This document shows positions 15,215 to 35,511 of a stretch of DNA of 37,455 nucleotides, piece after piece. Made by a program: the position numbers and the translations under genes. The stretch covers positions 1-37,455 of the forward strand of contig JAFGJN010000052.1 of NCBI GenBank assembly GCA_016929055.1, read 5' to 3'. The DNA is from Candidatus Zhuqueibacterota bacterium (GTDB taxonomy: Bacteria > Zhuqueibacterota > Zhuqueibacteria > Residuimicrobiales > Oceaniaggregativiventaceae). Each line of letters opens with the position of its first letter. Position 1 is the stretch's first letter. The notes below the pieces were generated by a model, which searched no databases, was not told where the DNA came from, and saw nothing but the letters and a program-made list of their open reading frames with translations.

Positions 15215-17398
15215 GTGACTCTATTCGCTGCCAATCGTTTACAACTGCTCTTTGCCGGAAATTCTCTGGTTTTGTTGATCCTCATGGTTCTGGCGGCTGC
15301 CTTAACGGTATTCGTTTATCGCCGAACCAATCCCGTGGTTTCACGGCGCCTGCGCCTAACTCTCATCATCTTGCGCACTCTGGCCCTGTGGCTCCTGTTG
15401 CTGGTTCTTTTTCAGGCAACCGTCGGCCGGATGCGCGAAATCGTCGAAAAGCCGATTGTGGCCGTCCTGGTGGATCAATCGGCCAGTATGGCCGTGCACC
15501 CCGATCGCCGCGAGCAGTTGGTGCAAAGCCTGGCTCAGATTCAAGCACTGCCAGCGCAAAACATGGAAATCCTGATCTATGGCTTTGGATCACGCCTGCA
15601 ATCGCTGGAAAATATAGCGGCGGATTCCCTGCAGCTGACCGATGACGCAACCGATATCACCGGCGCTCTGGAAAACCTGCGCTCACAATTGGGGTCGCGC
15701 AACCTGACCACCGTCGCCATCCTGAGCGACGGCAATTATACGCGCGGCGGCAACCCCGCTCGTCATGCCGGCCGCCTCGGTGTTCCCATCATCAGTATCC
15801 CCATTGGCTCGGTCGAAGAGATGCCCGACATCGCTCTGGCCAAAATCGAGGCCAACGCCTTTGCCTACAGCGGCGAAACCACACCGATTCGCATCGAAAT
15901 CTCTAACCGCGGGTTCCTTCCCCAACGCCTCACCGCGACACTGAAAGAAGACGGTTCCACTGTAGCAGCTGAAACCGTCGAATTGCCCGGCGCTCCCTCC
16001 CAACAGGAGGCGGTTCTCCGCTACACACCAACGCGACCCGGCCGATTCAAACTCGTCATCGAACTGCCCTCTCTTGAGGGCGAAGAGACCACTCTAAACA
16101 ATCGCCGCACAATTTACATCGATGTATTTAAATCGAGATTGCAGGTCTCCATTCTTGCCGGTTCGGCCATGCCGGATGTCGGTTTTCTGCGGCAACACTT
16201 TATGCGCGATGAGCGCTATGCCGTACAGACAATGGTCGAAAGCTCCAGCGGCCGCTATCTCGGCGGCCATCTTGTCGAACCAAACAGCGCATTTCTCGAC
16301 CAGACCGATCTGCTGATTCTCTTCAATTGGCCTACCCGGCAAACCGCACAGAAGCTGATCGAACGCGTGGTCAATGCCGTCAGCAACCGTCCTCTTTCAC
16401 TGTTGCTGATTGCAGGACCGGAGAGCAAACTCGACCGTTTACAGGAGATCGAAACGCATCTGCCTGTTCACGCCCGATCGCGCCCCATCAGCGAAAGCAC
16501 GCTCTTTGCCCGGCTTACGCCTGAGGGTAGCCGACATCCGATAACCGCCGGAAATGACGCCGAGAACATTGACTGGAACAGGCTGCCGCCGCTTTTGACC
16601 GCTCACAGAGAGATCGTCCCCTGGCCCGACTCTAAAGTTTTGTTGGTTGCGACGGGTGACAACCGGACGAGCGCGGAACCGGAAACAAATGCGCCCGAAC
16701 CCCTATTGGTTGTGCGCCAAAGCGATCTCAACAAATCCGCTGCGCTCATGGCCCATGCGAGCTGGCGCTGGCACCTGATGATGGCCGGCCTGGAGAAAAG
16801 TATAAGTGCCTTTGTTCCCCTTGTCGATCGGCTGGCGCGCTGGCTGGAAATCGAACACAACGACAAAAACGTTCGGCTGCAGGCCGACAAGGCCCTCTAT
16901 GCCGTCGGCGATCCGGTTGTCGCCGATGTTCAAATCGTCGACAACCGGCGGCGTCCCCTCGATGCGGATGTGAATATCACCGTCTATCACAACAACCGAC
17001 ACCTGCAGGAGCTGGCCACAGACCGGCAGCAAACGGGCCGGTTTGAAAAAACGATCTACCCCGACCGCCCAGGGGATTATATGCTCATCGCCATCGCTCA
17101 CCGGGAAGGTCGACTGGTCGGACGCGACACCACTCGAATCACTGTCGGCGAAACTGCCGACGAAATGCTGCAGACCCGCTTGAATCTACCGCTCCTCGCT
17201 TCCCTGGCCGAGATGAGCAGAGGGCGAATTCTGCCCCCGGACTCTTTGCAAACGCTGCCGAATATCGTATCCGGCCGCACACGCAGTCACTTCCGATTAA
17301 ATGAATGGGAACTTGCGCACCATCCAATCGTCTTATCTCTTGGTATCCTGCTCCTGACCGCCGAATGGCTGCTGCGCAAACTCTATGGCATGCTGTAA
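15215..17398 (+). CDS. VWA-domain membrane protein, BatA-like
   Basis: The 727-residue protein begins at a GTG behind AAGAGA. It has two N-terminal membrane helices (about residues 13-35 and 48-68), then a von Willebrand A domain with the metal-ion site D87-Q-S-A-S91 and the TVAILSDGN strand. Beta-sandwich-like segments and an alpha/beta region resembling a glutamine amidotransferase fold follow (from about residue 305). A C-terminal membrane helix (about 703-719) ends it, so most of the protein is probably periplasmic. The architecture is that of large BatA-like or CARDB/VWA membrane proteins of Gram-negative bacteria. It starts 9 bp after tsaD and precedes the trans-envelope cluster; membership in that system is an inference. 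A substrate-binding or complex-assembly role through the metal site is likely. Confidence 0.8.
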   Translation: MTLFAANRLQLLFAGNSLVLLILMVLAAALTVFVYRRTNPVVSRRLRLTLIILRTLALWLLLLVLFQATVGRMREIVEKPIVAVLVDQSASMAVHPDRREQLVQSLAQIQALPAQNMEILIYGFGSRLQSLENIAADSLQLTDDATDITGALENLRSQLGSRNLTTVAILSDGNYTRGGNPARHAGRLGVPIISIPIGSVEEMPDIALAKIEANAFAYSGETTPIRIEISNRGFLPQRLTATLKEDGSTVAAETVELPGAPSQQEAVLRYTPTRPGRFKLVIELPSLEGEETTLNNRRTIYIDVFKSRLQVSILAGSAMPDVGFLRQHFMRDERYAVQTMVESSSGRYLGGHLVEPNSAFLDQTDLLILFNWPTRQTAQKLIERVVNAVSNRPLSLLLIAGPESKLDRLQEIETHLPVHARSRPISESTLFARLTPEGSRHPITAGNDAENIDWNRLPPLLTAHREIVPWPDSKVLLVATGDNRTSAEPETNAPEPLLVVRQSDLNKSAALMAHASWRWHLMMAGLEKSISAFVPLVDRLARWLEIEHNDKNVRLQADKALYAVGDPVVADVQIVDNRRRPLDADVNITVYHNNRHLQELATDRQQTGRFEKTIYPDRPGDYMLIAIAHREGRLVGRDTTRITVGETADEMLQTRLNLPLLASLAEMSRGRILPPDSLQTLPNIVSGRTRSHFRLNEWELAHHPIVLSLGILLLTAEWLLRKLYGML

Positions 17399-17484
17399 TT
17401 TTCATTTCTGCAATCCCCTGGTTTTGTTGCTATTTAATGCAGAGAAGAAGAACAAAAGCTCGCCGTCAGGTGCCAAAAAAAGCA

Positions 17485-17513
17485 TTGAAATTCAGCGGCA
17501 CAAGAGCTACATT
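17485..17513 (+). promoter_or_regulatory. Candidate promoter of the trans-envelope cluster
   Basis: A -35 box TTGAAA (17485-17490) and a -10 box TACATT (17508-17513) are 17 bp apart in the 194-bp gap before the outer-membrane-like gene. The start site would fall near 17520, about 73 nt before the ATG. I found no sigma54 GG-N10-GC signature here despite the NtrC-type regulator encoded beyond the cluster. Confidence 0.5.
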
Positions 17514-17592
17514 TCTGATTGATTTGCTTGTGCAAGGCGCCCCCCCTCTCTGGGAAAGTCGTCGTGAAAATAAAAAAGGAACCAGACCTGTC

Positions 17593-18663
17593 ATGAAGAT
17601 TTTGAAACATCCGCTTTTCCTGGCGATTGCGATCGGCACCGTTCTTTACGGCACCGCCTCGGGACAGGTCACCTATGGTGGCGGCAAAGGATTGTTGCGC
17701 ATCTGGGATGCCCAGCCGGTGTTTCCCGGCCAGCTATACCTGAATGCGCTCTATTCCAGCTTTTTTACCGCTTCCGGCATCGATGCCAACGGCAGCAGGC
17801 GGCAAATTGAGGATCATACCCTGAATTTGGCGCTTACACTGGGTCTGTCCAAAAAATTCGAATTCTGGGCCCATTTCGTGCCTTATCAGGACGACCAGAA
17901 GCATCTGTGGGGGCCCTTTGGCGACAGTCGTGTCGGGCTCAAGTTTATGCCAGGCCGCGAAAGATCGATCTTTCAATTTGGATTGCTCGGATTTGCCCAA
18001 TTCGCCACAGCCGGTGCTTTTCTGGACGATTACAAGCCCAATCCCCCCTACGAGCCCTTTTCCTCGAATTCCCACGGCTGGGGATTGCTGGCACTCGTCA
18101 ATTTCGATCTCAAAAACGCGGCATCGCCCCTTCCGATCAAATTGTCTTTTAATGCCGGATATCGGGATCACGACTGGCACGACCGTTTTTTTACCGACGA
18201 CAAGGACCAACTGATCGGCGGGTTTGGATTGAAATTTCCTATCCGCACCTCGGTTCTTTATTCTGAAATCAGCGGCGAATATTTTATCCACCAGGCAGAC
18301 AAAATCCCGACACGATACAATTCCATGCGTTTTACGCAGGGAATCCGGTTTGTCGGCCCCCGGAACCTCGTTTTCGACATCGCCGGAGATATTCTCTTGA
18401 GTGCCAAGCCTTCCTCGCGCGAACTGGCATCCAGCCCGTTTATCAAAGAATACGCCGACTGGAAAATCATCTTTGGCGTCACGCATCGCCTGACACTGTT
18501 CAAACACCTGACGGCCGAAGAAAAAATGGCAAGGATGCGGGAACTCGAGGAACAAGCCAAACGGGAAACCATCAAGGAAAAACGGCAAAAGGTGATCAGA
18601 GAACTCGAGGAAATGCGTCGTAAATTGCAAGAAGAGAAAAAACCCTCACCTCGGCCGGAATAG
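17593..18663 (+). CDS. Putative outer-membrane beta-barrel with coiled-coil tail
   Basis: The 356-residue product starts with a signal peptide (MKILKHPLFLAIAIGTVLYG, cleavage probably after A-S-G). Alternating amphipathic strands with many aromatic and glycine residues follow, such as GQLYLNALYSSFFTASG, RVGLKFMPG and IFQFGLLGFAQFATAG. The pattern suits an outer-membrane beta barrel of roughly 12 or more strands. The last 50 residues differ sharply: a highly charged helix rich in Glu, Arg and Lys (about 303-350) that predicts a coiled coil. The ATG at 17593 has AAGGA about 12 nt upstream. It is the first gene behind the candidate promoter and could supply the outer-membrane part of the machine encoded downstream. 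I do not recognise a named family. Confidence 0.7.
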   Translation: MKILKHPLFLAIAIGTVLYGTASGQVTYGGGKGLLRIWDAQPVFPGQLYLNALYSSFFTASGIDANGSRRQIEDHTLNLALTLGLSKKFEFWAHFVPYQDDQKHLWGPFGDSRVGLKFMPGRERSIFQFGLLGFAQFATAGAFLDDYKPNPPYEPFSSNSHGWGLLALVNFDLKNAASPLPIKLSFNAGYRDHDWHDRFFTDDKDQLIGGFGLKFPIRTSVLYSEISGEYFIHQADKIPTRYNSMRFTQGIRFVGPRNLVFDIAGDILLSAKPSSRELASSPFIKEYADWKIIFGVTHRLTLFKHLTAEEKMARMRELEEQAKRETIKEKRQKVIRELEEMRRKLQEEKKPSPRPE

Positions 18664-18699
18664 ATACGAATCGTTTTACTATTGCCAGATCGCTGGACT

Positions 18700-20142
18700 A
18701 TGAGCTCTGTTGTGACAAAAATCCCTCTCAATCGTTCGATCCTCGTTTTGCTTTTACTCTGTGGATTTTTGCCGTCGTCCGCGCAATTCCGCCGGCAACA
18801 AAGCGAAAAAGTGATTTACCAGGATCTCGAAAAAGCATCGGAAAAACTCTTTCTTGAGGCAAAAAATCATTACGATGCCACCCGCTATTGGGAAGCGGCG
18901 CGAGATTTGATCATTTTGCTCGATTTCCACCCCTCCTATTCCCGAATCGACCAATCGCTTCTGATACTCGGCGATTGTCTCTATGAAATCGGGCTGACAG
19001 AAGGGGCGAGCAAGCTCTACCGCCATCTGGTGCGCAAATACATTCGCAGTCCCTTTCTGCCCAATGCCCTGCTCGGGCTGCAGCGCATCGAATACGACCG
19101 CGGCGATTACTCCAAGTGCCTGGAGTATTATACGGTCATCAACCGCGGCAATCCCAAGCGCGAGATACTGGACGGAGCGCGTTACTATGCCGGGCTCTGC
19201 CACCACAAGCTCAAGGATTACGTTCAGGCAGTCAAGATTCTCCAGGAAATCAGCGATAAAAGCGCTTATTATCCCTATGGTCTCTATACCATCGGTTTAT
19301 CCCATCTGCGCCTGAAACAGGTGCGCGAAGCGCTGCAAGCTTTTGCCGCAGTCAAGAGGTTGGCGATCACCAACGATGTCATCCGCGGTGCGGTGGATGA
19401 GACCCATTTGACCATGGGATATATCTATTACGAGCTCAAATACCACCACCATGCGGTCAGGGAATTCACCGCGGTTTCTCGGGATCACAAGAGCTACACC
19501 AATGCGCTTCTGGCCGCTGGATGGTCCGCCGCTCAACTCGGCGAATGGCTGCAAGCGGTGCAATACCTGACCGAATTGGCCGCTATCGCTCCCGAGAGCG
19601 ACCTGGCTGAGGAAGCGTTTTTCCTTCTTGGACGCGCTTATCTCAAATTGGGTCGCTATGAGGAAGCTCGAAACGTCTATGACCATCTGATCGCTATTTT
19701 TCCTGAACGCGATGTGGTACCGCAGATGGTGCAGCAGGTTCAGGTCGCTCTGATGGAGGAATCGCTCAAAATAGAAAAGGTCAAACTGGACCTGCTGATG
19801 CTGGAGACCAAATTGCTCGATACCATCGCACTGCCGGCGGACGAAAAAGTGCCGACTCATATTCGCGAAGAGAAAAAACGCCTGCAGGAGACGCGGGAAG
19901 GCTTGCTCAACCGCATTCGTGAAGAACGCCGGACATTCAATCAACTATCCGACTTGATGGCCGACATTCGCGATCGCACCGACACGCGGCGCGAAAGACG
20001 GGACTGGCGGGTATATGCCGAATATGGCCGCGCACGCGCCTCTTTTCTTTTGCGCATACAGGAGAGCGAAACAAAAGTCCAAAACCAAACCCCGGATTCT
20101 GCACCGACCGGTCAAACCGAAAAATCGGACAATTCTTTCTGA
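18700..20142 (+). CDS. Exported TPR-repeat protein
   Basis: The 480-residue protein has a signal peptide (hydrophobic core SILVLLLLCGFLP, cleavage probably after SSA), then helical tetratricopeptide repeats from about residue 45 to 350. Repeat signatures include LLILGDCLYEIG, ALLGLQRIEYDRGDYSKC and EEAFFLLGRAYLKLGRYEEA. The C-terminal third (about 350-450) is a charged coiled coil. An in-frame TTG at 18682 is possible, but the ATG at 18700 gives a normal signal peptide. It lies 36 bp after the outer-membrane-like gene and 5 bp before a second, larger TPR protein. TPR proteins of this type act as periplasmic scaffolds in envelope-spanning complexes. No named ortholog is evident. Confidence 0.82.
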   Translation: MSSVVTKIPLNRSILVLLLLCGFLPSSAQFRRQQSEKVIYQDLEKASEKLFLEAKNHYDATRYWEAARDLIILLDFHPSYSRIDQSLLILGDCLYEIGLTEGASKLYRHLVRKYIRSPFLPNALLGLQRIEYDRGDYSKCLEYYTVINRGNPKREILDGARYYAGLCHHKLKDYVQAVKILQEISDKSAYYPYGLYTIGLSHLRLKQVREALQAFAAVKRLAITNDVIRGAVDETHLTMGYIYYELKYHHHAVREFTAVSRDHKSYTNALLAAGWSAAQLGEWLQAVQYLTELAAIAPESDLAEEAFFLLGRAYLKLGRYEEARNVYDHLIAIFPERDVVPQMVQQVQVALMEESLKIEKVKLDLLMLETKLLDTIALPADEKVPTHIREEKKRLQETREGLLNRIREERRTFNQLSDLMADIRDRTDTRRERRDWRVYAEYGRARASFLLRIQESETKVQNQTPDSAPTGQTEKSDNSF

Positions 20143-20147
20143 TATCA

Positions 20148-23021
20148 ATGATGAAACGTAGCAATCGACACTTTTTTTTCTTTGGTGTGCTGGTCTGCCT
20201 CTGGCCCGGATCGGCCCAGACCCAGGAAAGCACCCTGGTCTCGGCAATCCTGCGGGAAGCCGGAAGCGATGTGGAAAAACTGTCGAAATTAATCCTGGAA
20301 CACGAAAGCTTGCTGCTAAAGTATCCAAAAAGCGATTTTGCACCGACGGTCCTGTTCCAGTTGGCTGAATTGCACCAGCAAAAATCGGTTCTGATCTTTC
20401 AGCAAGAAATGATCGCTTATGAAGAGGCGCTCGACGCCTATGATCGGGGCGAGTCGGCACAAGAGCCGATGATGCCGCGCATCAAACTCGGCGAAACAAT
20501 CGAATACTGCCGACGGATCATCGACGAATTCAACCGGGTGGATTTTCTCGACAAGGTCCTCTATAAATCGGCAATGGCTCATCTGCAGGAAGGCAATATC
20601 GCTAAAGCCAAAGTTCATTTCGATCGCATTATTCGAGAATTTCCCAATTCTTCCATCAATCTGGAATCACATTTCCGCATCGGCGAATACCATTTCGATC
20701 GCCGCGAATATTCTCAAGCCATCGAGCATTACCGCTTTTTACTCGGCAAGTGGGACAACCCCTATTTTGCCATGGCACTGTACAAACTCGGCTGGTCCTA
20801 TTACAACATTTCCGATTATCCCAACGCCATCAGCGCCTTTACCTACCTGATCGATGATATCGCCACGGTGGAAAAAGTCAATTCCCGCACCATTGGCCAA
20901 AACCGGGTAGACCTGCGCCGTGAGGCCGTGCACTATATCGCCAGCTGCTTTAGCGAATATGGCGGCCCCAAAGAAGCCAAACGCTTCCTGGCCCAGGAGA
21001 GTCATCAAAGCGTGGCCCTCGCCATCCTGCTGAAAATGGGGGAATTGTACGAACGCCGAAACTATTATGCCGAGGCCATCGAAACCTATCGCAACCTGTT
21101 GGTCATGTTTCCCATGTACGACGATGCACCCGGTATTCACCGCAAAATTGTGGACAGTTATACAGCAGACGAACAATTCGAGCAGGCCGATATCGCCCGA
21201 CGACAGGCGATCGACATGTTTTCACCCCGAGGTATGTGGTCCCGTTCGCAGCCGGACGACTCGCTTTACAGAGCCGCCATTGGACTTGCGGCGGAGTACC
21301 TGGTTTTTCTCGGCAAATCGGCACAGGCCGCCGGCCAGGAAACCGGTCGCGTTCGCGATTTTCAACTCGCGATCGAGAATTATGAACAGTACCTGCGCGA
21401 TTATCCGCATAGCGATGATGCCGCTGAAATCAATTATTATCTTGCCGAAAGCTATTACGACCAAGGCCTTTATGAAAAGGCAGCAGAAGCCTATTACGAT
21501 GTGGTGATCAAGTACGATTCCACCGATTTTCGCCAGGATGCCGCTTACAACCGGATTCTCTGTTATTATCAACTGCTCAGCAGCGACCAGGCACAGGACA
21601 GCGTGACCATCTATATCGTCGATTTCCTCGGTACCGGCGATATTCTGACGGCACGGATTTCCCGGCAATCGGAAAACGACCTGTTGCGCGCCTGCAACGA
21701 CTATGTTCGCTTTTTCCCCGACAGCAAACATATCGATCAGGTGCTGATGAAATTCGGCGAATCTCTGCATGAACTTCAAGCCTATGCCGCTGCGGTCAAG
21801 GCCTATAAAAAAGTTGTGGATCTCGGTCCTGAGGGGCCTTATTATCTGACCGCTTTTCTCAACACCGGCCAGGCGCTCTTTGAAGGCGGTTTTTTCAGCG
21901 AAACCGAAACCTGGCTACAGAGGCTGACAACCGACAATCCCGATTCCAGCCGCCAGGTGGAAAAAGCGCAGCGGTTGATCGCCTCTGCCCGCTTCAAAAT
22001 CGCCGAAAATCTCAGCGAACAGGGGCTCAACAGCGAAGCGGCGAATCTTCTCAAATCGATCGCCGGTTCCGCATCGGATCCCCAGTTCCGCGAACGTGCA
22101 CTTTTTGCCGCTGCTTCGCAGTTCCAGAAAACCGGTCAAAACGTCCAGGCTGCTCTGCTGCTCGAAGAATTGGGCAAAAATTATCCCGAGTCCGATCTCG
22201 CTGACGATGCCCTCTATCGCGCCGCCGGCATCCGCATGGACGACCAATCCTGGACTCTGGCGGCCGCAGACTATTTGCTCCTGGTCGACGCTTTTCCTGG
22301 CTCGGAATTTGCTTCCCAGGCATTGAAAAACGCCGCGCTTTGTTATGAAAACGTGCAGGATTGGTACGCTGCCAAAAAAGTCTATGCCCGATGTATCGAA
22401 ACCTTTTCTGATAATATTGAAGATACGATCGAATGCCTTTACCGCAGCGGTGAAATGTCCTTCAAATCCGGAGACTGGACAACGGCACTGAACGATTTTA
22501 CCCGCGTCGTCAATACCTACAGAAATGAATTACAAAACAGTAACTATATCGACTCGTATTTCGTCGCTCAGGCGCAATTCATGCTCGGTGAAGTTCATTT
22601 TCAGGATTACCGGAAAATGGAACTGACACCGCCGCTCAAACAGGCACTGCAAAACAAAATCGCCAAATTCAACACTGTGCTGGCGCATTACAAAGAGACG
22701 CTCGAGTATCAGGTGGCGGATTGGAGTACGGCTGCTTCCTATCGCATCGGCATGGCGTTTGAAGAGTTGGTGCGCGCCTTTATGGAATCGCCCGTACCGC
22801 CGGGACTGGACGAGGACGAGGTGCGGCTCTATACCCACAAGCTGGAAGAGAGCGCTCAGCCCTACAAGGAACGGGCACTGGAAACCTATCGACGCATGGT
22901 CGAACAAGCACAAGAAAATCAGATCGAAAACAAATGGGTCGAGGAGAGCCGCAAACGCATCGAGGTTCTGAGTGCGCAGCTGCAAAGCACGCCGCCGCCG
23001 GCCCGGGAGGTTTCGGGTTGA
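20148..23021 (+). CDS. Large exported TPR-repeat protein
   Basis: This 957-residue protein carries a signal peptide (residues 1 to about 24, with FFFFGVLVCLWPGSAQ) and then an almost continuous alpha-solenoid of TPR-type repeats. Examples are SHFRIGEYHFDRREYSQAIEHY-type units near 180 (shown here only by its core FRIGEYHFDRREYSQA), ALYKLGWSYYNISDYPNAI near 210, AEINYYLAESYYDQGLYEKA near 430, and DDALYRAAGIRMDDQSW near 690. It starts at tandem ATGs 5 bp after the previous gene with no clear ribosome binding site, so translation is probably coupled. Its size and repeat number resemble large periplasmic TPR scaffolds of gliding-type machines. It would bridge inner- and outer-membrane parts. Function is inferred. 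Confidence 0.85.
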   Translation: MMKRSNRHFFFFGVLVCLWPGSAQTQESTLVSAILREAGSDVEKLSKLILEHESLLLKYPKSDFAPTVLFQLAELHQQKSVLIFQQEMIAYEEALDAYDRGESAQEPMMPRIKLGETIEYCRRIIDEFNRVDFLDKVLYKSAMAHLQEGNIAKAKVHFDRIIREFPNSSINLESHFRIGEYHFDRREYSQAIEHYRFLLGKWDNPYFAMALYKLGWSYYNISDYPNAISAFTYLIDDIATVEKVNSRTIGQNRVDLRREAVHYIASCFSEYGGPKEAKRFLAQESHQSVALAILLKMGELYERRNYYAEAIETYRNLLVMFPMYDDAPGIHRKIVDSYTADEQFEQADIARRQAIDMFSPRGMWSRSQPDDSLYRAAIGLAAEYLVFLGKSAQAAGQETGRVRDFQLAIENYEQYLRDYPHSDDAAEINYYLAESYYDQGLYEKAAEAYYDVVIKYDSTDFRQDAAYNRILCYYQLLSSDQAQDSVTIYIVDFLGTGDILTARISRQSENDLLRACNDYVRFFPDSKHIDQVLMKFGESLHELQAYAAAVKAYKKVVDLGPEGPYYLTAFLNTGQALFEGGFFSETETWLQRLTTDNPDSSRQVEKAQRLIASARFKIAENLSEQGLNSEAANLLKSIAGSASDPQFRERALFAAASQFQKTGQNVQAALLLEELGKNYPESDLADDALYRAAGIRMDDQSWTLAAADYLLLVDAFPGSEFASQALKNAALCYENVQDWYAAKKVYARCIETFSDNIEDTIECLYRSGEMSFKSGDWTTALNDFTRVVNTYRNELQNSNYIDSYFVAQAQFMLGEVHFQDYRKMELTPPLKQALQNKIAKFNTVLAHYKETLEYQVADWSTAASYRIGMAFEELVRAFMESPVPPGLDEDEVRLYTHKLEESAQPYKERALETYRRMVEQAQENQIENKWVEESRKRIEVLSAQLQSTPPPAREVSG

Positions 23022-23353
23022 AAACATTTCTTTCACTATTCATGTTGATGCTGATTGCCGCCGTTCCGGCGCAGGAAAAAACCGAGCCATCCCAACCGCC
23101 TAAAGAGAGCGCTGTCGAACCGCGTGTGGATGACAGTTCCATCAGGCTCTTTCTCGACAAGATCGAGGTCGCTGGCCAACTGGAAAAACCTCAGGCAATC
23201 TTTATTCTGCCCGGGTCAGCTCCGGAGATCGACGACATCCGCATCGAGCGTTCCTTTTTCAAAGAAATCTTTCGGACGGTTGAAAAGAAAGGCCAGATCA
23301 TCACCAAACCCGTTGATGAAAAAAAAGAACGTAAAAATTATATCCCCTGGTAA
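23018..23353 (+). CDS. Small exported protein of unknown function
   Basis: The start is a TTG at 23018 with GGGAGG 8 nt upstream; it overlaps the stop codon of the large TPR gene by 4 bp. The 111-residue product has a clear signal peptide (KTFLSLFMLMLIAAVPA). A Pro/Glu-rich linker and a compact region with DDSSIRLFLDKIEVAGQLEKPQ near residues 38-58 follow, then IFILPG near 60-65 and a basic, aromatic C-terminus ending NYIPW. I do not recognise the family. The overlap with the TPR gene and position before exbB mark it as a component of the same complex, perhaps a periplasmic adaptor. Confidence 0.72.
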   Translation: MKTFLSLFMLMLIAAVPAQEKTEPSQPPKESAVEPRVDDSSIRLFLDKIEVAGQLEKPQAIFILPGSAPEIDDIRIERSFFKEIFRTVEKKGQIITKPVDEKKERKNYIPW

Positions 23354-23436
23354 TCCCATCTGACCGGAGTTCAATTCACTTCGCACCGGATCAATGCTGG
23401 GCAGGTAGCCACGACCGCAAGACAAGGAGGTTTTCG

Positions 23437-24081
23437 TTGGAAAGCATCATCCGCTTCTTTACGACGGGCGGGCCCGTCATGTTTATCATTCTCTTTGCAC
23501 TGCTTTTGGGCATCGCCATCATCGTCGAGCGCATCATCACCATCCGTTTCCGCAACCGAATCGATTCGGAAGCATTCGTCAACCGGCTGGTCGAGCTGAT
23601 CCGCAGCGGCAACGTCAACCGCGCCATCGAGTTTTGCGGTATGTCGGAAGCGGCGCTGCCAAAAATCGCTCGCGCCGGTCTGGAAGAGATCAACAGCTCT
23701 CCAGCCAATATTCAGAACGCCATGGAGTTGTCTGCCATGGTCGAGATCCCCAAAATCGAAAAGCGCACCAATTATCTCAACATGATTGCCAATGTGGCCA
23801 CACTGCTCGGCCTGCTGGGAACCATCATGGGTTTGATCAACTCGTTTGCAGCCGTGGCGCATGCCGACGCCGCCGACAAAGCCACCCTGCTTTCCGCCGG
23901 AATCTCGCTGGCGATGAACACCACGGCCTTTGGTCTGATCACCGCCATACCCTGCATGATCGGCTACACCTATCTGGTGGAAAAAACCAATGAAATCGTC
24001 GACGAAATCAATGAAAATGTGGCCAGACTCTACAAGCATATGGTCACGGCTTCCGCATCACCGGATCACCGGCACAAATAA
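23437..24081 (+). CDS. ExbB/TolQ/MotA-family proton-channel protein
   Basis: ExbB-type proteins form the inner-membrane pentamer that, with ExbD dimers, turns proton flow into mechanical work. The 214-residue protein starts at TTG behind AAGGAGG. It has one N-terminal membrane helix (about residues 12-33, PVMFIILFALLLGIAIIVE), a cytoplasmic helical region, and the two conserved helices with NVATLLGLLGTIMGLINSF (about 124-142) and LAMNTTAFGLITAIPCMIGY (about 158-180), which match the family. It precedes two ExbD genes. Gene order and neighbours fit an Agl-like or Tol-like motor rather than an iron-uptake TonB locus. A symbol is not assigned because exbB, tolQ and aglR cannot be told apart by eye. 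Confidence 0.93.
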   Translation: MESIIRFFTTGGPVMFIILFALLLGIAIIVERIITIRFRNRIDSEAFVNRLVELIRSGNVNRAIEFCGMSEAALPKIARAGLEEINSSPANIQNAMELSAMVEIPKIEKRTNYLNMIANVATLLGLLGTIMGLINSFAAVAHADAADKATLLSAGISLAMNTTAFGLITAIPCMIGYTYLVEKTNEIVDEINENVARLYKHMVTASASPDHRHK

Positions 24082-24104
24082 TCAATCGATTTCTAAAAAC
24101 GATA

Positions 24105-24137
24105 GGATTCGGCACCCAGCCTCGAATCCACTTGGGT
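24105..24137 (+). promoter_or_regulatory. Possible pseudoknot or two-state hairpin before the first exbD
   Basis: GGATTCG (24105-24111) pairs perfectly with CGAATCC (24123-24129). The loop contains ACCCA (24114-24118), which pairs with TGGGT (24133-24137) just downstream. The two pairings cross, giving an H-type pseudoknot or two competing hairpins that end 6 nt before the ribosome binding site of the next gene. Each pairing could arise by chance. Confidence 0.3.
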
Positions 24138-24153
24138 CTCTGTGAGGTAAACG

Positions 24154-24618
24154 GTGAATTTAAAAAATGCTATACAAATGCGGCGCCGCGAACGGCAGGA
24201 AAGCGATCTGGATCTCACGCCGGTGATGAATATTTTTCTGATATTGATTCCCTTTCTGTTGCTCACTGCGGTTTTTGTCAAGATCGCCGTTCTGGAACTC
24301 TCGCTGCCCAATCTGGAACGCGCCGGTGCGGCCGTGCAACAGCAGGAGAAAAAAAGCGTGGTCCTGAATTTCCTTTTCATCAAGGAAACAGGTTTTGAAG
24401 TCAAAAGTCCGGAGCTCAAATTTGCCCCTATCGCAAAAACAGGATCGGACTATGACTGGGCTGCCCTCACCGCCCAACTTTCCCAGGCCAAAGCCAAGCA
24501 TCCCGATTCCGAGGATATCATCATCGCTCCAGCCAATTCAATCAAATACGAGACCATCATTTCAGTGATGGATCACTGCCGGGAATCCGGATTCAGCAAC
24601 ATTTCTATCTCCGGCTGA
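24154..24618 (+). CDS. ExbD/TolR-family protein with Asn in place of the channel Asp
   Basis: ExbD/TolR proteins pair with the ExbB pentamer and bind peptidoglycan or a transducer in the periplasm. The 154-residue product starts at GTG behind GAGG. Residues 18-22 match the DxxLTP lead of the family, followed by one membrane helix (about 24-45) and a periplasmic domain with SEDIIIAPANSIKYETIISVMD near the end, typical of ExbD. The residue at the position of the proton-carrying aspartate (D25 in Escherichia coli ExbD) is N26, in PVMNIFLILIPFLLL. The second ExbD, encoded next, keeps its Asp. The pair may work as a heterodimer with one active site. Confidence 0.9.
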   Translation: MNLKNAIQMRRRERQESDLDLTPVMNIFLILIPFLLLTAVFVKIAVLELSLPNLERAGAAVQQQEKKSVVLNFLFIKETGFEVKSPELKFAPIAKTGSDYDWAALTAQLSQAKAKHPDSEDIIIAPANSIKYETIISVMDHCRESGFSNISISG

Positions 24619-24665
24619 TCTCCGGCCGGCAGCTATGCTTTACTGTAAACACGCACGAGAAGATT

Positions 24666-25178
24666 ATGACTTTTTTAACCCGTTCCGAACTGCCGCGAAT
24701 TTCGGCCACACGAAGCAACCGAACCGGCTCGTTCAAGCTGCGCCTGACATCGATGATCGACATGTTTACAATTCTGCTGGTTTTTCTGCTCAAATCCTAT
24801 AGCGCTGAAGGCCAGATCATCACGATCACGGCGGATCTGCGCCTTCCCGAATCGACTTCACAAATCCAACCGCGTGTGACGTCGGTGGTAGCTGTTACAT
24901 CCGAATGGATTTTGCTCGACGGCAGACCGATCACCCGAATCGAACAGGTGATGCAAAAGAGCGACCTGTTGATTCAGCCGCTAGCCGACGAATTGCAGCG
25001 TTTGCGCGCCATCTCCGAGGGAATTGGCGAAATGTCCACCCGTATGGCCGGATTTCAGGGTACGCTGTCGATTCAGGCCGACCGCGAAATGACCTTTGAT
25101 CTGATCAAACGAATCATGCTGACATGCGGTAAGGTCGGTTATAACAATATGATGCTCACGGTGATGCAAGCTGAATAG
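24666..25178 (+). CDS. ExbD/TolR-family protein, second copy with Asp
   Basis: This 170-residue protein has a basic cytoplasmic start with KLRLTSMID, then a membrane helix (about residues 30-45, IDMFTILLVFLLKSY) that carries the expected channel aspartate at D32. A periplasmic domain with the ExbD-like end FDLIKRIMLTCGKVGYNNMM follows. It is only distantly similar to the first copy and has an extra segment between the two halves (about 85-130). The gene lies 47 bp after the first exbD and 51 bp before the FHA/AgmX gene. Two different ExbD proteins with one ExbB match the composition of the myxobacterial AglRQS motor. Confidence 0.9.
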   Translation: MTFLTRSELPRISATRSNRTGSFKLRLTSMIDMFTILLVFLLKSYSAEGQIITITADLRLPESTSQIQPRVTSVVAVTSEWILLDGRPITRIEQVMQKSDLLIQPLADELQRLRAISEGIGEMSTRMAGFQGTLSIQADREMTFDLIKRIMLTCGKVGYNNMMLTVMQAE

Positions 25179-25229
25179 AGGGCAATCTCTCCGTTTTTGC
25201 CCCCGAAACACCTAACCTTTTGAGAACGA

Positions 25230-26615
25230 ATGTCAAAGCGCCGAAAAAAAGCCGTGGTTTCCCTGAAAATCTCTCAGAATGGCAGAGAGATCGAACGCAC
25301 CCTGCGCGACCGGGAATCGCTGACCGCGGGTAAAAGCCCAAACAACGATATCGTCCTCTATGGCGATTCCTTTCCCCGCTCCATGCAGGTGTTGCGTTGC
25401 TCGAGCTCGGGTTGTACGCTGCAGTTCGACGCAAACATGCGTGGCCAGGTGAATTATCGGGATGCCCGGCTGGATCTGCAGACCCTGCTGGTACACGAGC
25501 TTTTACCCGCCAGAAGCGGCTATTATCAGCTGCCGATTCGTCACGGACGCAACGGACTGATTCATGTGGGCGATGCCACGGTTCAGTTTCACGTCAATGG
25601 ACGGGCGCAGGCCGCTCCTGCCGAACCCAGCTATTCCTGGACCAAAGCCACAGGCAAAGCCCTCACTCGGGACGTGTTGTTCAAATCCATTTTCGTTCTG
25701 TTTTTTGCTTTTGAGATTCTTTTTGCCCTCTTTTTGCGGGGTTACGAGTTGCCGCCGATCGAACCGCCGGAATTGGCTCAAGTACCCAAACGCTTCGCCC
25801 GATTCGTGGTGCAACAGCAGGCGGAAACCCCGGAATCGGCCATGGCACTGACGACCGGCGGCGCTGACGGCGCTCAAAAAGAGGAAAAAGAAGGCGACGA
25901 AGAAGGGGCGGAACAACAGAGACAGGGTCGCCCACGGCGGGGCGGCGCGGGAGGCGGATCGGCCGAACAATCGGTAGCCGAACAGGGATTGCTGGCGCTG
26001 ATCGGCGGCAGCGGCGAAGCGAGTCAAAGCGGTGGCGCCGCTGATTTTCTCATCGATCAGGGATTGGTGCAGGAACTCGACAATCTATTGGGACAAACGC
26101 CTTTGCGCAAAGGCAGCGGCTATGGCCGCGGAACGGGGTCCGGTGTTGGCGATGGTCAGGAAGAGGGCGACGGCATCGAGGATTTGATGGACATCGGATT
26201 GAGCGGAGGGATCGACGATCTTATCGGCGATGTGCAGGGTGTGGAATCGGTTCAACTGCAAAAAAGAGGCAACGTCAACATCCAGGCGCCCGGACGCATT
26301 CGCGGCTCCGAAAGCGCGAGGGGCTATCGTACCGCCGAATCGGTCATGTCGGTCATCAACAGCCAGCAGGGCCGTGTCATGTATACCTATAACAAATATC
26401 TGCGCACAGACCCCACTCTCGGCGGCAAAATCAGCCTCGACGTCACAATCCAAGCCGACGGCCGGGTTGCCAAAGTAGATGTCATCGATACGACCATCAG
26501 CAATCGCGATTTTATTCGCGAGTTGATCGCCATTCTGCGTCGGTTGAGATTCGACACCATTCCGGAAGGATCGTTGACCGTCAACGTGCCTTTTGTCTTC
26601 AATCGGGTCGAATAG
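25230..26615 (+). CDS. FHA-like / AgmX-PglI energy-transducer protein
   Basis: The 461-residue protein has three parts. Residues 10-125 form a cytoplasmic beta-rich domain that reads like an FHA domain (SLTAGKSPNNDIVLYGDSF), though the usual SxxH of the phosphothreonine site is absent. One membrane helix spans about 150-169. A long Gly/Glu/Gln-rich linker (about 200-345) leads to a C-terminal domain (365-461) with SVINSQQGRVMYTYNKYL, GGKISLDVTIQADGRVAKV and LRRLRFDTI. The last part matches the AgmX/PglI (TonB-like) C-terminal domain. The layout equals that of GltG-type proteins of Myxococcus, which couple the AglRQS motor to the outer parts. It is the last gene of the cluster and probably the moving arm of the machine. 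Confidence 0.85.
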   Translation: MSKRRKKAVVSLKISQNGREIERTLRDRESLTAGKSPNNDIVLYGDSFPRSMQVLRCSSSGCTLQFDANMRGQVNYRDARLDLQTLLVHELLPARSGYYQLPIRHGRNGLIHVGDATVQFHVNGRAQAAPAEPSYSWTKATGKALTRDVLFKSIFVLFFAFEILFALFLRGYELPPIEPPELAQVPKRFARFVVQQQAETPESAMALTTGGADGAQKEEKEGDEEGAEQQRQGRPRRGGAGGGSAEQSVAEQGLLALIGGSGEASQSGGAADFLIDQGLVQELDNLLGQTPLRKGSGYGRGTGSGVGDGQEEGDGIEDLMDIGLSGGIDDLIGDVQGVESVQLQKRGNVNIQAPGRIRGSESARGYRTAESVMSVINSQQGRVMYTYNKYLRTDPTLGGKISLDVTIQADGRVAKVDVIDTTISNRDFIRELIAILRRLRFDTIPEGSLTVNVPFVFNRVE

Positions 26616-26640
26616 AACTGCTTCAGATTCGAAAATCTGC
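26616..26640. other. Convergent gene junction with short hairpin
   Basis: Only 7 bp separate the stop codons of the convergent transducer and regulator genes. A 6-bp perfect inverted repeat, CAGATT and AATCTG with a CGAA loop (26624-26639), spans the regulator 3' end. There is no T-run on either side, so termination of the two facing transcripts is unclear. Confidence 0.35.
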
Positions 26641-28008
26641 TGCATTCATGTTCAACGTCTGCATTTTTTGCTGCAAAAACTGACGCTTCATCTGTAACAG
26701 CCGCGCCGCGGCGCTTACATTGCCCTTGCTCTCCTGCAGTGCCCGGCGGATCAAATCCCGCTCGTAATTCTCCATTGCTGCATTTTTCATTTCGGCGAAC
26801 GACCGTTCTCCCAGCCGATCAACCGGCATCGCCCCGGCAGCTTCCGCGTGGAGCTCGTCCGGCAACTGCGCCGCGCTGATGCACTCGTGCTCCGCCAAAA
26901 CCACCGCTTGCTCGATCAAATTCTGCAGCTGCCGAACGTTTCCCGGCCAACTAGAGCGCTGCAGCAAGAGTATCGCTGAAGCGTCAAAACGCCGGGGCGG
27001 CAGATTGTGGCGCTGGACGCAGCGCTGAAGAAAATGATGAGCCAATAACAGGATATCCCCTGGCCTCTCCCGCAGCGGCGGCAAGTGGATCTCCACCACT
27101 TTGATGCGATAATAGAGGTCCGAACGAAATCGGCCCTGATCGATCTCGGCGCACAAATCCTTGTTGGTGGCGCTGATCAACCGCACATCGGTGCGAATGA
27201 CTTGTTTGCCGCCCAGACGCGTGATCTGCTTGTCTTCCAGCACCCGCAGAATTTTGGCCTGAGTCTCGAGACTCATGTCGGCGATCTCGTCCAAAAATAG
27301 CGTACCGCCGTCGGCACGCTCAAACTTGCCCTGGCGCTGTGCCAACGCGCCGGTAAAACTGCCCTTCTCGTGGCCGAACAGCTCGCTTTCCACCAAATCT
27401 TTGGGAATAGCCGCGCAATTCATGGTGACAAACGGGCCCTTGTGCCGCGGGCTGGAACGATGAATCTGCCCGGCGGCCAGCTCTTTGCCGGTGCCGCTCT
27501 CTCCGGTGAGCAAAACCGTTACATCGGTCTGGCTGACTTTGTCGATCAAACTGCGAACCCGTTGAATCGCATCACTTTCTCCGATCAAATCCGCTTGCCG
27601 GGTTGCCTGCAATTGGCGCCGCAACTGCAGGTTTTCCCGCTGCAAATGCAGTTTTTCAAGGGCGTTCTCAACTGTCAGACGCAACTCATCGAGTTCATAG
27701 GGCTTGACGAGATAGTCAAAAGCCCCGGCCTTCATCGCCTCGACCGCGATGCGCTCTGTTCCGTGCGCCGTGATCATGATGAACACCGGTCCCCCCTCTC
27801 CGCCAACCGCGCGCAGCAGTTCGAGACCGTCCATCTCGGGCATGCGGATATCGCACAAAACCAGATCGGGTTTCCAGGATTCGATTTTAAACCGAGCTTC
27901 ATGGCCGTTTTCCGCTTCCGCCAGATGATAGGAATCGTCTCCGAGCGCACGCCGCATGCCGTAACGCGCCATCGGTTCATCGTCGACCAACAGGATCCTG
28001 TCCTTCAT
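26623..28008 (-). CDS. NtrC-family sigma54 response regulator
   Basis: The 461-residue protein has a receiver domain (residues 1-115) with acidic residues D9-D10 and the phospho-acceptor D53. A sigma54-interacting AAA+ domain (about 140-370) carries Walker A GESGTGKE, the sigma54 loop EKGSFTGA (a common variant of GAFTGA) and FLDEIADMS. A C-terminal Fis-type helix-turn-helix (about 415-455, GNVSAAARLLQMKRQFLQQKM) ends it. It should activate sigma54 promoters when phosphorylated by the kinase encoded upstream, whose stop codon it overlaps by 4 bp. The target genes are unknown. The closest neighbours are the kinase, the trypsin-fold protein and the convergent trans-envelope cluster. Confidence 0.96.
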   Translation of the reverse strand: MKDRILLVDDEPMARYGMRRALGDDSYHLAEAENGHEARFKIESWKPDLVLCDIRMPEMDGLELLRAVGGEGGPVFIMITAHGTERIAVEAMKAGAFDYLVKPYELDELRLTVENALEKLHLQRENLQLRRQLQATRQADLIGESDAIQRVRSLIDKVSQTDVTVLLTGESGTGKELAAGQIHRSSPRHKGPFVTMNCAAIPKDLVESELFGHEKGSFTGALAQRQGKFERADGGTLFLDEIADMSLETQAKILRVLEDKQITRLGGKQVIRTDVRLISATNKDLCAEIDQGRFRSDLYYRIKVVEIHLPPLRERPGDILLLAHHFLQRCVQRHNLPPRRFDASAILLLQRSSWPGNVRQLQNLIEQAVVLAEHECISAAQLPDELHAEAAGAMPVDRLGERSFAEMKNAAMENYERDLIRRALQESKGNVSAAARLLQMKRQFLQQKMQTLNMNAADFRI

Positions 28009-30128
28009 TCCGATTCCCTCGCTTTCCTTTTGGCTTCCGCGCCTCTGAGCGTAACACGGAATTCGCTTCCCTGCCCAACCTGGCTCTCGAGTTCCAACCT
28101 GCCACCGAGATCACGGACATTGCGCCGGACAATGGTCAAACCCAGTCCCGTGCCGACAGCTTTGGTGGTGAAAAACGGCGAGAAAATCTTTCCCTGCGTC
28201 TCGGCATCGATGCCCGGGCCGTTGTCTGCGATTCGAATTTCCACCCAGGATTCACCGCCCGCCGCACCATCGCTTTTACTCGACGTCAAAATCACCCGCA
28301 CCCGACCGCCCATCGGCATCGCCTGCAAAGCGTTGTGAAGCAAATTAAAAATGATTTCCCGTACCGATTGTTTGGGGGCCAGGACCCGACAGGCGCATGT
28401 CGGTGGTTCGAAATCGATGCGTACCCGGTTTTGTTCAGCCTGATGCCGCAACAGGGCGATCACATCCTCGACAACCTCCCCGACGTCCAACCGCTCTCGA
28501 TTGGCCTGAGTAGGTCGGGCAAAACTCAACAACTTTTCCAGCACGGCATTCAATCGGTTGATTTCAGAGATCACACGATTCAAGTCCTGCTTGTCCCGCC
28601 CAACAGCGTTTTCGCTCAACACCTGGATCAAAACTTTGATCGATGAAAGGGGGTTTTTTATCTCGTGGGCAATGGTGGTCGCCAATTGTCCCATATTTCG
28701 CAGGTTTTCCGACTGATAGATGTGCGATTCCAGCTCCAGGCGTTCCTGCAACAGCCGGGCATATTGAAAAGCCAGAGCCACCTGGTTGGCAAAGGTCTGC
28801 AACACATCCATCTCTTCATCGGTATAGTCATTGCCGTTCTGCCTTTCGCTCAAACAGATCAATCCGGTCAACAGGTTCTCAAAAGCGATCGGCACAGCCA
28901 AAGCCATTTTGTTTTTTTGTAAAGCCCAGATTACCCGGTGGTCGCGCATCTGGCGGCGCAGACTGAAATGGCGCGTCTCTTGCAGCGCCTGCACCAGTAA
29001 AGTCACATGCGGCAAAACCCGCGTCCCCGATTCATGCAGGATAACGGGTTTCCCGTCATCGAAACGAAAAACAAGAATAGCGCAACTCTTTGCTTTGAAA
29101 ACGGTTACCAGCGTTTCGCTCAGGGTGTTCATCAACTGGTCCAGATCGAAAATTCGACTGATGCTGTCCGAGAGCTCGCGCAACACCTGCTGGTAATAGT
29201 AACGCTCCTTGAAAAACCATTTGTCCAGACGGTCCTGAACGCGAGCACGGAAGGGCTGAAAAGCGAAAACCAACGCCACCAGCAGCAAGCCCTCAATAAC
29301 AGCCGAATTGACCTCGGGAAACCGTCCCAGGTAATCGCCCAGCCGCCGAATTCCGAGCAAATAGATCGCCATGACCAAACCATAGATGATGGAATAAACC
29401 AAACTGGGCTTGATCACCAGGCGATAAAAGTTGTACCGATAGATATAATAAGCGAGCACCGCCATGGGATAGGCGGGGGAGAGGAGGAGAATCAATGCCA
29501 GTGTTTCGCCGATATAATGGACCCGATAGAGAGGGACAACAAAAATCAGCAGCGAACCAACGGCGATGCCGGCCAGAATTTGGCCGAGATCACGGTAAAA
29601 ATGGCGGTCAGAAGGATCCGACAGCAGGGGGATAAAACGCCTGGATATCCAAAGCGAACCGGCAATAGCGGTCAAAGCCCAAAGGATAAAAACCCGGGCG
29701 ACCACAAGCTCCGGAGCCGGCAGAGGTCGCCAAAGGAATGCCGAGAGGACAAAAAGAAAGGCCGGTACATAGAGCAAGACGATCGACAACTGCCGGCGGG
29801 AATTCAGAGTCTCTTCCTGTGACGATTCGGTGCGAAAACGAATGGCCAGATGGACATGCAGAAGGGCCGACGGCATCACCACCAGCCCCAGATAGGCGAT
29901 CAGTTTAAAGACGGCGGCCGTCAGCGCGGCAACGGAACCGAAAAACAACCAAAACAAAAGCGACAAAAAATTCCCTGCGTTCCACAGGGCACAGGAAAAG
30001 AGCACCACGCCAAAGGCAAAATCATCGTAGCGTTTCGGCGCTTTTTTCAGCGACAAACCGAGCAGAATGAGGGTCAAGGCGGTGCCGAAACCAAAGCCGA
30101 GGATGGGCAAAAGAGTAAAAAATGACAT
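28005..30128 (-). CDS. Multi-span membrane histidine kinase with GAF domain
   Basis: The 707-residue kinase has about eight to nine membrane helices in its first 310 residues, a GAF domain (about 330-470), a dimerisation domain with H488 in IAHEIKNPLSSIKV, and an ATPase domain with N-box NLLHNALQ, IADNGPGID and GTGLGLTIV. It partners with the NtrC-type regulator encoded by the overlapping downstream gene. The architecture resembles PrsK-type kinases; the input signal is unknown. The gene starts 14 bp after the trypsin-fold gene, so all three form one operon. Its ATG at 30128 begins just at the first membrane helix. Confidence 0.95.
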   Translation of the reverse strand: MSFFTLLPILGFGFGTALTLILLGLSLKKAPKRYDDFAFGVVLFSCALWNAGNFLSLLFWLFFGSVAALTAAVFKLIAYLGLVVMPSALLHVHLAIRFRTESSQEETLNSRRQLSIVLLYVPAFLFVLSAFLWRPLPAPELVVARVFILWALTAIAGSLWISRRFIPLLSDPSDRHFYRDLGQILAGIAVGSLLIFVVPLYRVHYIGETLALILLLSPAYPMAVLAYYIYRYNFYRLVIKPSLVYSIIYGLVMAIYLLGIRRLGDYLGRFPEVNSAVIEGLLLVALVFAFQPFRARVQDRLDKWFFKERYYYQQVLRELSDSISRIFDLDQLMNTLSETLVTVFKAKSCAILVFRFDDGKPVILHESGTRVLPHVTLLVQALQETRHFSLRRQMRDHRVIWALQKNKMALAVPIAFENLLTGLICLSERQNGNDYTDEEMDVLQTFANQVALAFQYARLLQERLELESHIYQSENLRNMGQLATTIAHEIKNPLSSIKVLIQVLSENAVGRDKQDLNRVISEINRLNAVLEKLLSFARPTQANRERLDVGEVVEDVIALLRHQAEQNRVRIDFEPPTCACRVLAPKQSVREIIFNLLHNALQAMPMGGRVRVILTSSKSDGAAGGESWVEIRIADNGPGIDAETQGKIFSPFFTTKAVGTGLGLTIVRRNVRDLGGRLELESQVGQGSEFRVTLRGAEAKRKARESE

Positions 30129-34748: not shown

Positions 34749-34769
34749 AGCGGGGGACGAAAAAAACTT

Positions 34770-34798
34770 TTGCGCTTTGTCGATATTTTGCGTAATTT
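34770..34798 (+). promoter_or_regulatory. Weak promoter candidate for the polyamine genes
   Basis: TTGCGC (34770-34775) and TAATTT (34793-34798) are spaced by 17 bp in the 160-bp gap after uvrA. The -10 match is poor. The gap is AT-richer than its surroundings, which supports a promoter somewhere here. Confidence 0.25.
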
Positions 34799-34908
34799 CA
34801 AGTCCGAAAAACGGCGTTTTCCAAATGCCGATCCGTTCAAACCTCCACATCCGACTCTATGCCGGTCAATCCTTTCACCAACCCCAATTTCAGGAGGGTG
34901 ATGCGAAA

Positions 34909-35469
34909 TTGTATCAGATCATTCCAAAACGCATGTTCTTTACCAAAGGCGTCGGCTATCATCGCGACAAGCTGCAGAGCTTTGAGTTGGCGCTTCGCGA
35001 TGCCGGGGTTGCCGCTTGCAACCTGGTCCAAGTCTCCAGTATCTTTCCGCCCGAATGCAAAATAATTCCCCGTGAAGTGGGCGGCAAAGTACTGCGCCCG
35101 GGACAGATCACGTTTGTGGTGATGGCCAGAGAAGCGACCAACGAACCCAACCGCCTCGTTTCGGCCGCTATCGGCCTGGCTCAGCCCAAGGATAAAAAAC
35201 AATACGGCTATATCAGCGAACACCATGGCTATGGTGAAACGCAAAAAAAAGCCGCCGACTATGCCGAAGATCTCGCCGCCCAGATGCTCGGGTCGACCAT
35301 GGGTCTGGAACTCGATCCGAATCTGGCCTGGGACGAACAGCGCGACGAATACAAAGTGGACAATAAGAACATTTTCGTCAGTCGCAGCATTGCCCAGACC
35401 GCACGCGGACACAAGGATGGCCTCTGGACCACCGTGGTCGCCATGGCGGTTTTTCTGCTGGGCGAGTAA
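34909..35469 (+). CDS. pdaD: Pyruvoyl-dependent arginine decarboxylase
   Basis: This enzyme decarboxylates arginine to agmatine with a pyruvoyl group made by self-cleavage. The 186-residue protein has the cleavage-site motif VQVSSIFPPECKIIP; by family knowledge the chain is cut between S43 and S44. It also has FFTKGVGYHRDKLQSFELAL, VMAREATNEPNRLVSAAIG and YGYISEHHGYG, all typical of bacterial PvlArgDC. I chose a TTG start at 34909 with a near-perfect GGAGGGTGA 7 nt upstream, which gives the usual family length. An in-frame ATG at 34825 would add 28 residues lacking family similarity, and the ATG at 34933 would cut conserved sequence. It begins a three-gene polyamine cluster. Confidence 0.9.
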   Translation: MYQIIPKRMFFTKGVGYHRDKLQSFELALRDAGVAACNLVQVSSIFPPECKIIPREVGGKVLRPGQITFVVMAREATNEPNRLVSAAIGLAQPKDKKQYGYISEHHGYGETQKKAADYAEDLAAQMLGSTMGLELDPNLAWDEQRDEYKVDNKNIFVSRSIAQTARGHKDGLWTTVVAMAVFLLGE

Positions 35470-35511
35470 GCACCGTTGACAAGCCGTTCACGCCCGCCAA
35501 CCGGAGTTTTT

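Follow-up and report, generated by a model that had tools for sequence, protein, structure and literature searches.

What kind of machine is encoded where the genes for one ExbB and two unlike ExbD proteins stand in a row with those for an outer-membrane barrel, two tetratricopeptide repeat (TPR) proteins and a bitopic transducer, and what is its task? The question is raised by a functional unit of eight genes (barrel, TPR protein 1, TPR protein 2, a small exported protein, ExbB, ExbD1, ExbD2 and transducer) at 17593-26615 of the window, that is, of the whole 37,455-nucleotide stretch analysed, which is contig C111 of a 4.05 Mb Candidatus Zhuqueibacterota genome (366 contigs, 90.5% complete) belonging to candidate division KSB1. 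We consider it likely that this unit, called the KSB1 unit below, encodes a trans-envelope machine driven by protons and of the same kind as the AglRQS/Glt core complex, that its motor works with one conserved Asp if ExbD1 and ExbD2 pair, and that the motor has been swapped in genera of family f4. The core complex was described in 2011 as seven genes (gltD, gltE, gltG and gltC with aglR, aglQ and aglS) in Gammaproteobacteria, Geobacter and Fibrobacter (PMC3169522), and a position outside a known myxobacterial setting, as noted by the first-pass annotation, thus does not make a new kind of machine.

The Agl/Glt-like cluster is genuine, and its recurrence throughout the phylum excludes chance. 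Direct reading showed all eight genes in this order at about 45 loci of families f1 to f16, the conservation that the first-pass annotation had proposed to look for. Matches to the transducer, full-length relatives among them, occur in 79 of 82 phylum genomes, some of them to paralogues only. The flanking genes vary between families, and no cargo, adhesin or polymer genes are conserved beside the unit. A paralogous module B (the unit itself being module A) lies on contig C230 of the window's genome (G000; L060 2287-10307) and encodes a TPR protein of about 1526 residues, a small protein, ExbB, ExbD1, ExbD2 and an AgmX protein; it is present also in phylum genomes where module A was not found. 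In two genomes of family f13 (G080 and G081; L070 and L091) a second ExbB-ExbD-AgmX cassette was seen directly downstream of module A.

As in the core complex, one TolQ-type and two TolR-type genes are clustered with a transducer, and this transducer has the architecture of GltG, namely an FHA domain, one transmembrane (TM) helix and a TonB/AgmX C-terminal domain. The GltG model NF033760 is its best match (E 4e-25), but at 88 bits against a cut-off of 650, which was reached in 0 of the 82 phylum genomes. The GltE model NF033758 gave 17 TPR matches in the window's genome, none of them at the window locus; TPR protein 1 scored 29.5 bits against the cut-off of 450 for the GltC model NF033756, with generic TPR models scoring better; and the GltJ model gave no significant score for the window protein. 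Hence the earlier idea of an Agl/Glt-like machine in another lineage is supported for the kind of machine, through the GltG best match and the ExbB clade described below, but the profile searches suggested for it do not support strict membership of the Glt family.

A profile scan of genome contigs recovered only KSB1-type loci, hence no Myxococcus sequence, and a scan of viral contigs gave no match, while the plasmid searches returned one Vibrio system, on two plasmids. In the cluster on Vibrio alginolyticus pMBL287 (NZ_CP013487, 272287-279491) the genes for a barrel, two further exported proteins, small proteins, ExbB, ExbD, ExbD and a transducer follow the order of the KSB1 unit, and its first and second ExbD find their best matches in the KSB1 ExbD1 and ExbD2 profiles, respectively. 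As an observation in its own right, a complete core-complex-like cluster is thus present in mobile form on two Vibrio alginolyticus plasmids, pMBL287 (NZ_CP013487 272287-283180, L097), where a large Ig-like protein is its neighbour, and NZ_CP013488.

A proposed motor with one conserved Asp

In a tree of 33 ExbBs, those of modules A and B and of the Vibrio plasmid lie on one side of a branch with 100/100 support, and E. coli ExbB, TolQ, the TonB-type ExbBs of the window's genome and that of the donor motor described below lie outside it; the Vibrio cluster was the one core-complex-like system from outside the phylum in this tree. Both pore threonines of ExbB are kept in 46 of 46 loci. At the position that corresponds to D25 of E. 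coli ExbD and D23 of TolR, where the proton-carrying Asp is expected, ExbD1 has Asn in all 46 module A loci and in all eight of module B, and ExbD2 has Asp throughout (46/46 in module A, and likewise in module B and Vibrio). The Vibrio plasmid pair combines Ser in ExbD1 with Asp in ExbD2, and the TonB-type ExbD pairs of these same genomes (on contig C277 and in the donor motor) have Asp in both proteins. Since some members of the set share no more than 40-45% identity with ExbD1 and ExbD2 of the window, the median being 54%, the Asn/Asp split is not a mere consequence of close sequences.

In 5:2 proton motors (ExbBD, TolQR and MotAB) both subunits of the axle carry the Asp, and the present motor departs from that pattern provided that its axle is ExbD1-ExbD2. 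If such a heterodimer forms, the motor would have one protonatable Asp instead of two. We propose that five ExbB subunits would surround the ExbD1-ExbD2 pair, with proton flow driving the motor, and that the motor would move the bitopic transducer through its membrane helix. The TonB-like C-terminal domain of the transducer could then exert a pull on both TPR proteins in the periplasm, which would pass it on to the outer-membrane barrel.

A rival that we regard as plausible, if not as probable, is an ordinary motor in which an ExbD2 homodimer (Asp/Asp) alone occupies the ExbB ring and the Asn-type ExbD1 is an accessory outside the pore, serving as a peptidoglycan anchor or a brake. Homodimeric ExbD or TolR is indeed the rule in solved motors (PMC12215075), and whether AglQ and AglS form homodimers or a heterodimer is unsettled (PMC9389320); yet ExbD1 retains the TM segment around the site, with Asn invariant in both modules, which is hard to explain without a position in the pore, and the ExbD1 and ExbD2 genes invariably co-occur. 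The way in which AglQ and AglS are paired in the gliding motor, and the purpose of two unlike axle subunits, are stated open questions (PMC9389320, PMC9120999). A lineage with Asn at one proton site in every copy offers a part-answer by evolution, and its proteins lend themselves to direct testing.

A probable motor swap in family f4

In three genera of family f4 (g12, g14 and g15; genomes G048, G049, G051, G052 and G053) the unit is reduced to barrel, TPR1, TPR2, small protein and transducer, without ExbB, ExbD1 and ExbD2, and no ExbB of the module A type was found elsewhere in those five genomes. Their transducers keep the usual C-terminal part, with 48-50% identity over the last 210-230 residues, but where the FHA-TM half would stand they have a coiled-coil-like region and a different TM segment. 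This segment of about 63 residues, with the motif YGAxELK, matches, with E values of 1e-12 to 1e-21 and as much as 56% identity, a TonB that these genomes also encode; this donor TonB, whose C-terminus scores over the cut-off, follows an ExbB-ExbD-ExbD operon elsewhere in those genomes. Across 22 genomes of the order the YGAxELK segment occurs in exactly these five, twice in each, once in TonB and once in the hybrid transducer. An assembly error was rejected as the cause, since three genera, with five genomes between them, share the arrangement and each of these genomes has the TonB that its new TM segment matches. Outside the order such TonBs occur in family f13 and in G010, and the four f13 genomes in which a module A locus was read keep the ordinary motor. 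Also in f13, proteins of 400-430 residues at L204, L209, L210 and L211 carry the YGAxELK TonB segment with no ExbB found beside them, and are possibly further hybrid transducers.

The simplest reading of these sequences is a natural motor swap, in which the hybrid transducer would be driven by the TonB-type ExbB-ExbD-ExbD motor, and with it the whole envelope set of the swapped genera. Comparison of the two forms shows a transducer made of two modules, a front half (cytoplasmic domain and TM segment) that goes with the motor and a back half that goes with the TPR/barrel set. Domain swaps between TolA and TonB work, according to a report cited in PMC12204202.

A rule at the level of residues is suggested by the contact between transducer and motor. 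In E. coli, Ser16 and His20 of TonB contact Ser34 and Trp38 of ExbB (PMC12215075). Among the YGAxELK-type TonB/ExbB pairs, matched by position and counted by hand, a His in the TonB TM segment goes with Ser or Thr at ExbB position 34 in 9 of 9 cases, and a residue other than His with Val, Ile or Leu in 7 of 7; TonBs with no ExbB found nearby were left out of the count, and one extra TonB near an already paired ExbB (L193 1471, with Glu) was set aside as ambiguous. The hybrids track the ExbB of their presumed motor in 5 of 5 genomes, with His in the four that have ExbB Ser and Ala in G051, where TonB has Leu and ExbB Ile. At the same contact position Ser or Thr is found in 0 of 46 module A ExbBs. 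Loss of the TM His in G051 had been considered as a rare trait in itself; it is not rare across the wider TonB family, and the pairwise comparison with ExbB took its place.

Several points weigh against the reading developed so far. The perfect split of the pairs would have a probability of 1 in 11,440 if all of them were independent, but some of the covarying pairs are not. In the trees of both the rest of the unit and the transducer C-terminus, G050 is nested inside f4 although it retains the motor of module A, and the swap therefore happened twice, or once with a later transfer or reversal; a single clean origin within f4 is unsupported by the trees, the approximately unbiased (AU) test on the C-terminal part being borderline (p 0.049). 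The ExbD1-ExbD2 pairing is presumed, and an ExbD2 Asp/Asp homodimer with another role for ExbD1 could take its place. The TPR and barrel proteins have no detectable sequence kinship to the Vibrio proteins or to the Glt models, the comparison outside the phylum consists of one cluster, that of the Vibrio plasmid, and the genomes compared include metagenome assemblies.

With these points taken into account, we hold a wider proposal to have about an even chance: that core-complex motors are obligate ExbD1-ExbD2 heterodimers with one proton site, that their load can be re-routed by exchanging the cytoplasmic and TM "plug" of the transducer, and that the Ser/Thr-His contact is part of the matching code of the donor motor. 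The swapped family is a natural case in which the membrane half of a transducer follows the motor and the periplasmic half follows the load, with a residue-level rule to test.

Genes of the unit and their surroundings

The features of the unit are collected in Table 1. The membrane/VWA-like protein gene at 15215-17398, which follows tsaD, adjoins the unit within the order to which the window belongs and, beyond that, in no more than a few families, and the unit is therefore taken to start at 17593; of the gene list given earlier for 15215-26615, the eight genes from the barrel to the transducer stand and the gene at 15215 becomes a mere neighbour. TPR protein 1 may start at ATG 18700 or alternatively at TTG 18682, and the TTG start of the small exported protein overlaps the stop of TPR protein 2 (TTGA).

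Table 1. Genes of the KSB1 unit in the window, with the evidence for each assignment
Feature	Position	Strand	Evidence
Outer-membrane beta-barrel with signal peptide and C-terminal helix; heads the unit; about 12 strands	17593..18663	+	AlphaFold, Foldseek, conserved position
TPR protein 1, exported	18700..20142	+	TPR_6 E 9e-20; orthologues in about 45 loci
TPR protein 2, exported, YbgF/CpoB-like repeats	20148..23021	+	TPR_6 E 1e-35; TIGR02795 155 bits (cut-off 90); orthologues in about 45 loci
Small exported protein	23018..23353	+	Sequence; orthologue at the same place in about 45 loci
ExbB/AglR-like motor subunit	23437..24081	+	Pfam MotA_ExbB PF01618 E 3e-29
ExbD1; Asn (AAT 24229-24231) where the proton-carrying Asp is expected	24154..24618	+	PF02472 E 4e-21
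ExbD2; Asp kept (GAC 24759-24761)	24666..25178	+	PF02472 E 2e-11
GltG-like transducer	25230..26615	+	NF033768 71 bits (cut-off 40); NF033760 E 4e-25; model and Foldseek

The head protein is modelled as the barrel followed by a 40-residue C-terminal helix (AlphaFold, pLDDT 83, pTM 0.72), and the model is near FapF (Foldseek E 4e-7) and NanC (TMt 0.73), among others. The transducer has an FHA fold at residues ~9-123, a TM helix at ~149-169, a low-complexity linker and an AgmX/TonB-type C-terminal domain at ~346-460. Its N-terminal part is scored by no Pfam FHA model, but the predicted structure matches FHA folds, the best being the cytoplasmic domain of the YscD family of type III secretion (4d9v, E 8e-4), and the FHA-like domain reported earlier is thus retained as a fold and not as a sequence match. 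Within this domain (window 25329-25385, residues 34-52) 44 of 45 sequences have Pro where the phosphothreonine-binding Ser would be, and 17 have the Arg, which makes phosphopeptide binding doubtful; like YscD, the domain is probably not a phosphopeptide binder. The C-terminus passes the AgmX/PglI model NF033768 and misses the TonB C-terminal model TIGR01352 (23.4 bits against 27.1 required), although its predicted structure matches TonB C-terminal domains; the one-helix AgmX/PglI transducer of the first-pass annotation is upheld. A search of solved structures gave kinship to TonB, TolQ and ExbB only.

The promoter candidate noted earlier at 17485-17513 is indeed there, as a sigma-70 match at 9 of 12 consensus positions, but it is weak because two such matches are seen in the kilobase against 0.8 expected in shuffles. 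A search for sigma-54 promoters found 16 matches against 19 expected, hence no signal, despite the adjacent NtrC-type regulator. This response regulator and a histidine kinase (26623-30128, minus strand) face the unit, are kept there in several families of the order, and resemble the PEP-CTERM PrsR/PrsK and AtoC/AtoS models. Further along the window, at 34603-36588 on the plus strand, a pyruvoyl-dependent arginine decarboxylase is followed by a deoxyhypusine synthase family protein, here in a bacterium.

Task of the machine and comparison with known systems

For the task of the machine, its near-universal presence in the class and the lack of a TolB over the cut-off in 59 of 82 genomes lead us tentatively to favor outer-membrane or cell-wall housekeeping over gliding. 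A gliding or surface-transport motor as in Myxococcus, the idea put forward by the first-pass annotation, would account for the likeness of the parts (one ExbB with two ExbDs, an FHA-TM-AgmX transducer, TPR proteins and a barrel), but we think it improbable: the core genes are insufficient for gliding and are present in bacteria not known to glide (PMC3169522), almost the whole of a large class has the machine, the unit is not accompanied by conserved adhesin or polymer genes, the GltE model has no match at the locus, and the CglB model had no match anywhere, controls included, and hence was used without a positive control.

Another rival, in our view also unlikely, would be a stand-in for Tol-Pal that acts at division to tether the outer membrane to the cell wall or constrict it, the YbgF/CpoB-like TPR protein and the barrel taking the parts of TolB and Pal. 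Tol-Pal is patchy in the phylum, with TolB over the cut-off in 23 of 82 genomes and none found in the window's genome, TPR protein 2 passes the YbgF/CpoB model, and near-universal presence in the class agrees with a housekeeping role. However, TolB and the machine are found together in every genome of family f7 and in the majority of f13, which argues against simple replacement, and the transducer is of the AgmX type, not TolA. A plain TonB import system, finally, is very improbable. The C-terminal domain of the transducer has the TonB fold, but it passes the AgmX/PglI cut-off and not those of the TonB models, the unit includes no receptor, and TonB-type motors are present elsewhere in the genome with ExbBs in other branches of the tree; with GltG as the best match of the transducer, the refutation by a plain TonB system that had been envisaged earlier did not come about, and the reported absence of a TonB-dependent receptor, TolA and TolB is borne out. 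All told, the envelope machine is close to universal in a large group of uncultured bacteria, most of whose genomes have no TolB over the cut-off.

Set beside the core complex (PMC3169522), the KSB1 unit likewise gathers into a single cluster one ExbB, two ExbDs, TPR proteins, a GltG-like transducer and one gene more, and the function of the core complex was unassigned as well. The KSB1 unit differs in being headed by a barrel gene, in TPR proteins not recognisable as GltE, nor clearly as GltD or GltC, and in its phylum; in the openly licensed literature searched, we found no account of an Asn/Asp split between core-complex ExbDs, nor of a phylum-wide barrel-headed version, an invariant split of this kind or a natural swap of the transducer plug. 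The Vibrio plasmid cluster shares the gene order and the ExbB clade and differs by Ser in ExbD1, a transducer without the FHA domain and a large Ig-like protein upstream.

In M. xanthus GltG contacts AglR, and one motor serves two transducers, in Agl-Glt and Agl-Nfs (PMC3858216), a sign of modularity. These machines share with the KSB1 unit the 1+2 motor type and the FHA-TM-TonB-like transducer GltG (PMC3858216), but their genes are scattered whereas the KSB1 unit is a single directon, and the conserved Asp is reported for AglQ as well as for AglS (PMC9389320), the AglQ site being essential (PMC9120999), where the KSB1 ExbD1 has Asn. With ExbB-ExbD-TonB and TolQRA the unit has in common the motor family, the pore threonines and the TonB-like C-terminal fold; it departs from them in two unlike ExbDs with one Asp, an AgmX-type tail, an FHA-fold cytoplasmic domain, and an ExbB without Ser or Thr at the position that contacts the transducer His. 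Hence the kind of machine is already known (PMC3169522, PMC3858216), whereas the Asn/Asp split of its ExbDs and the motor swap look new.

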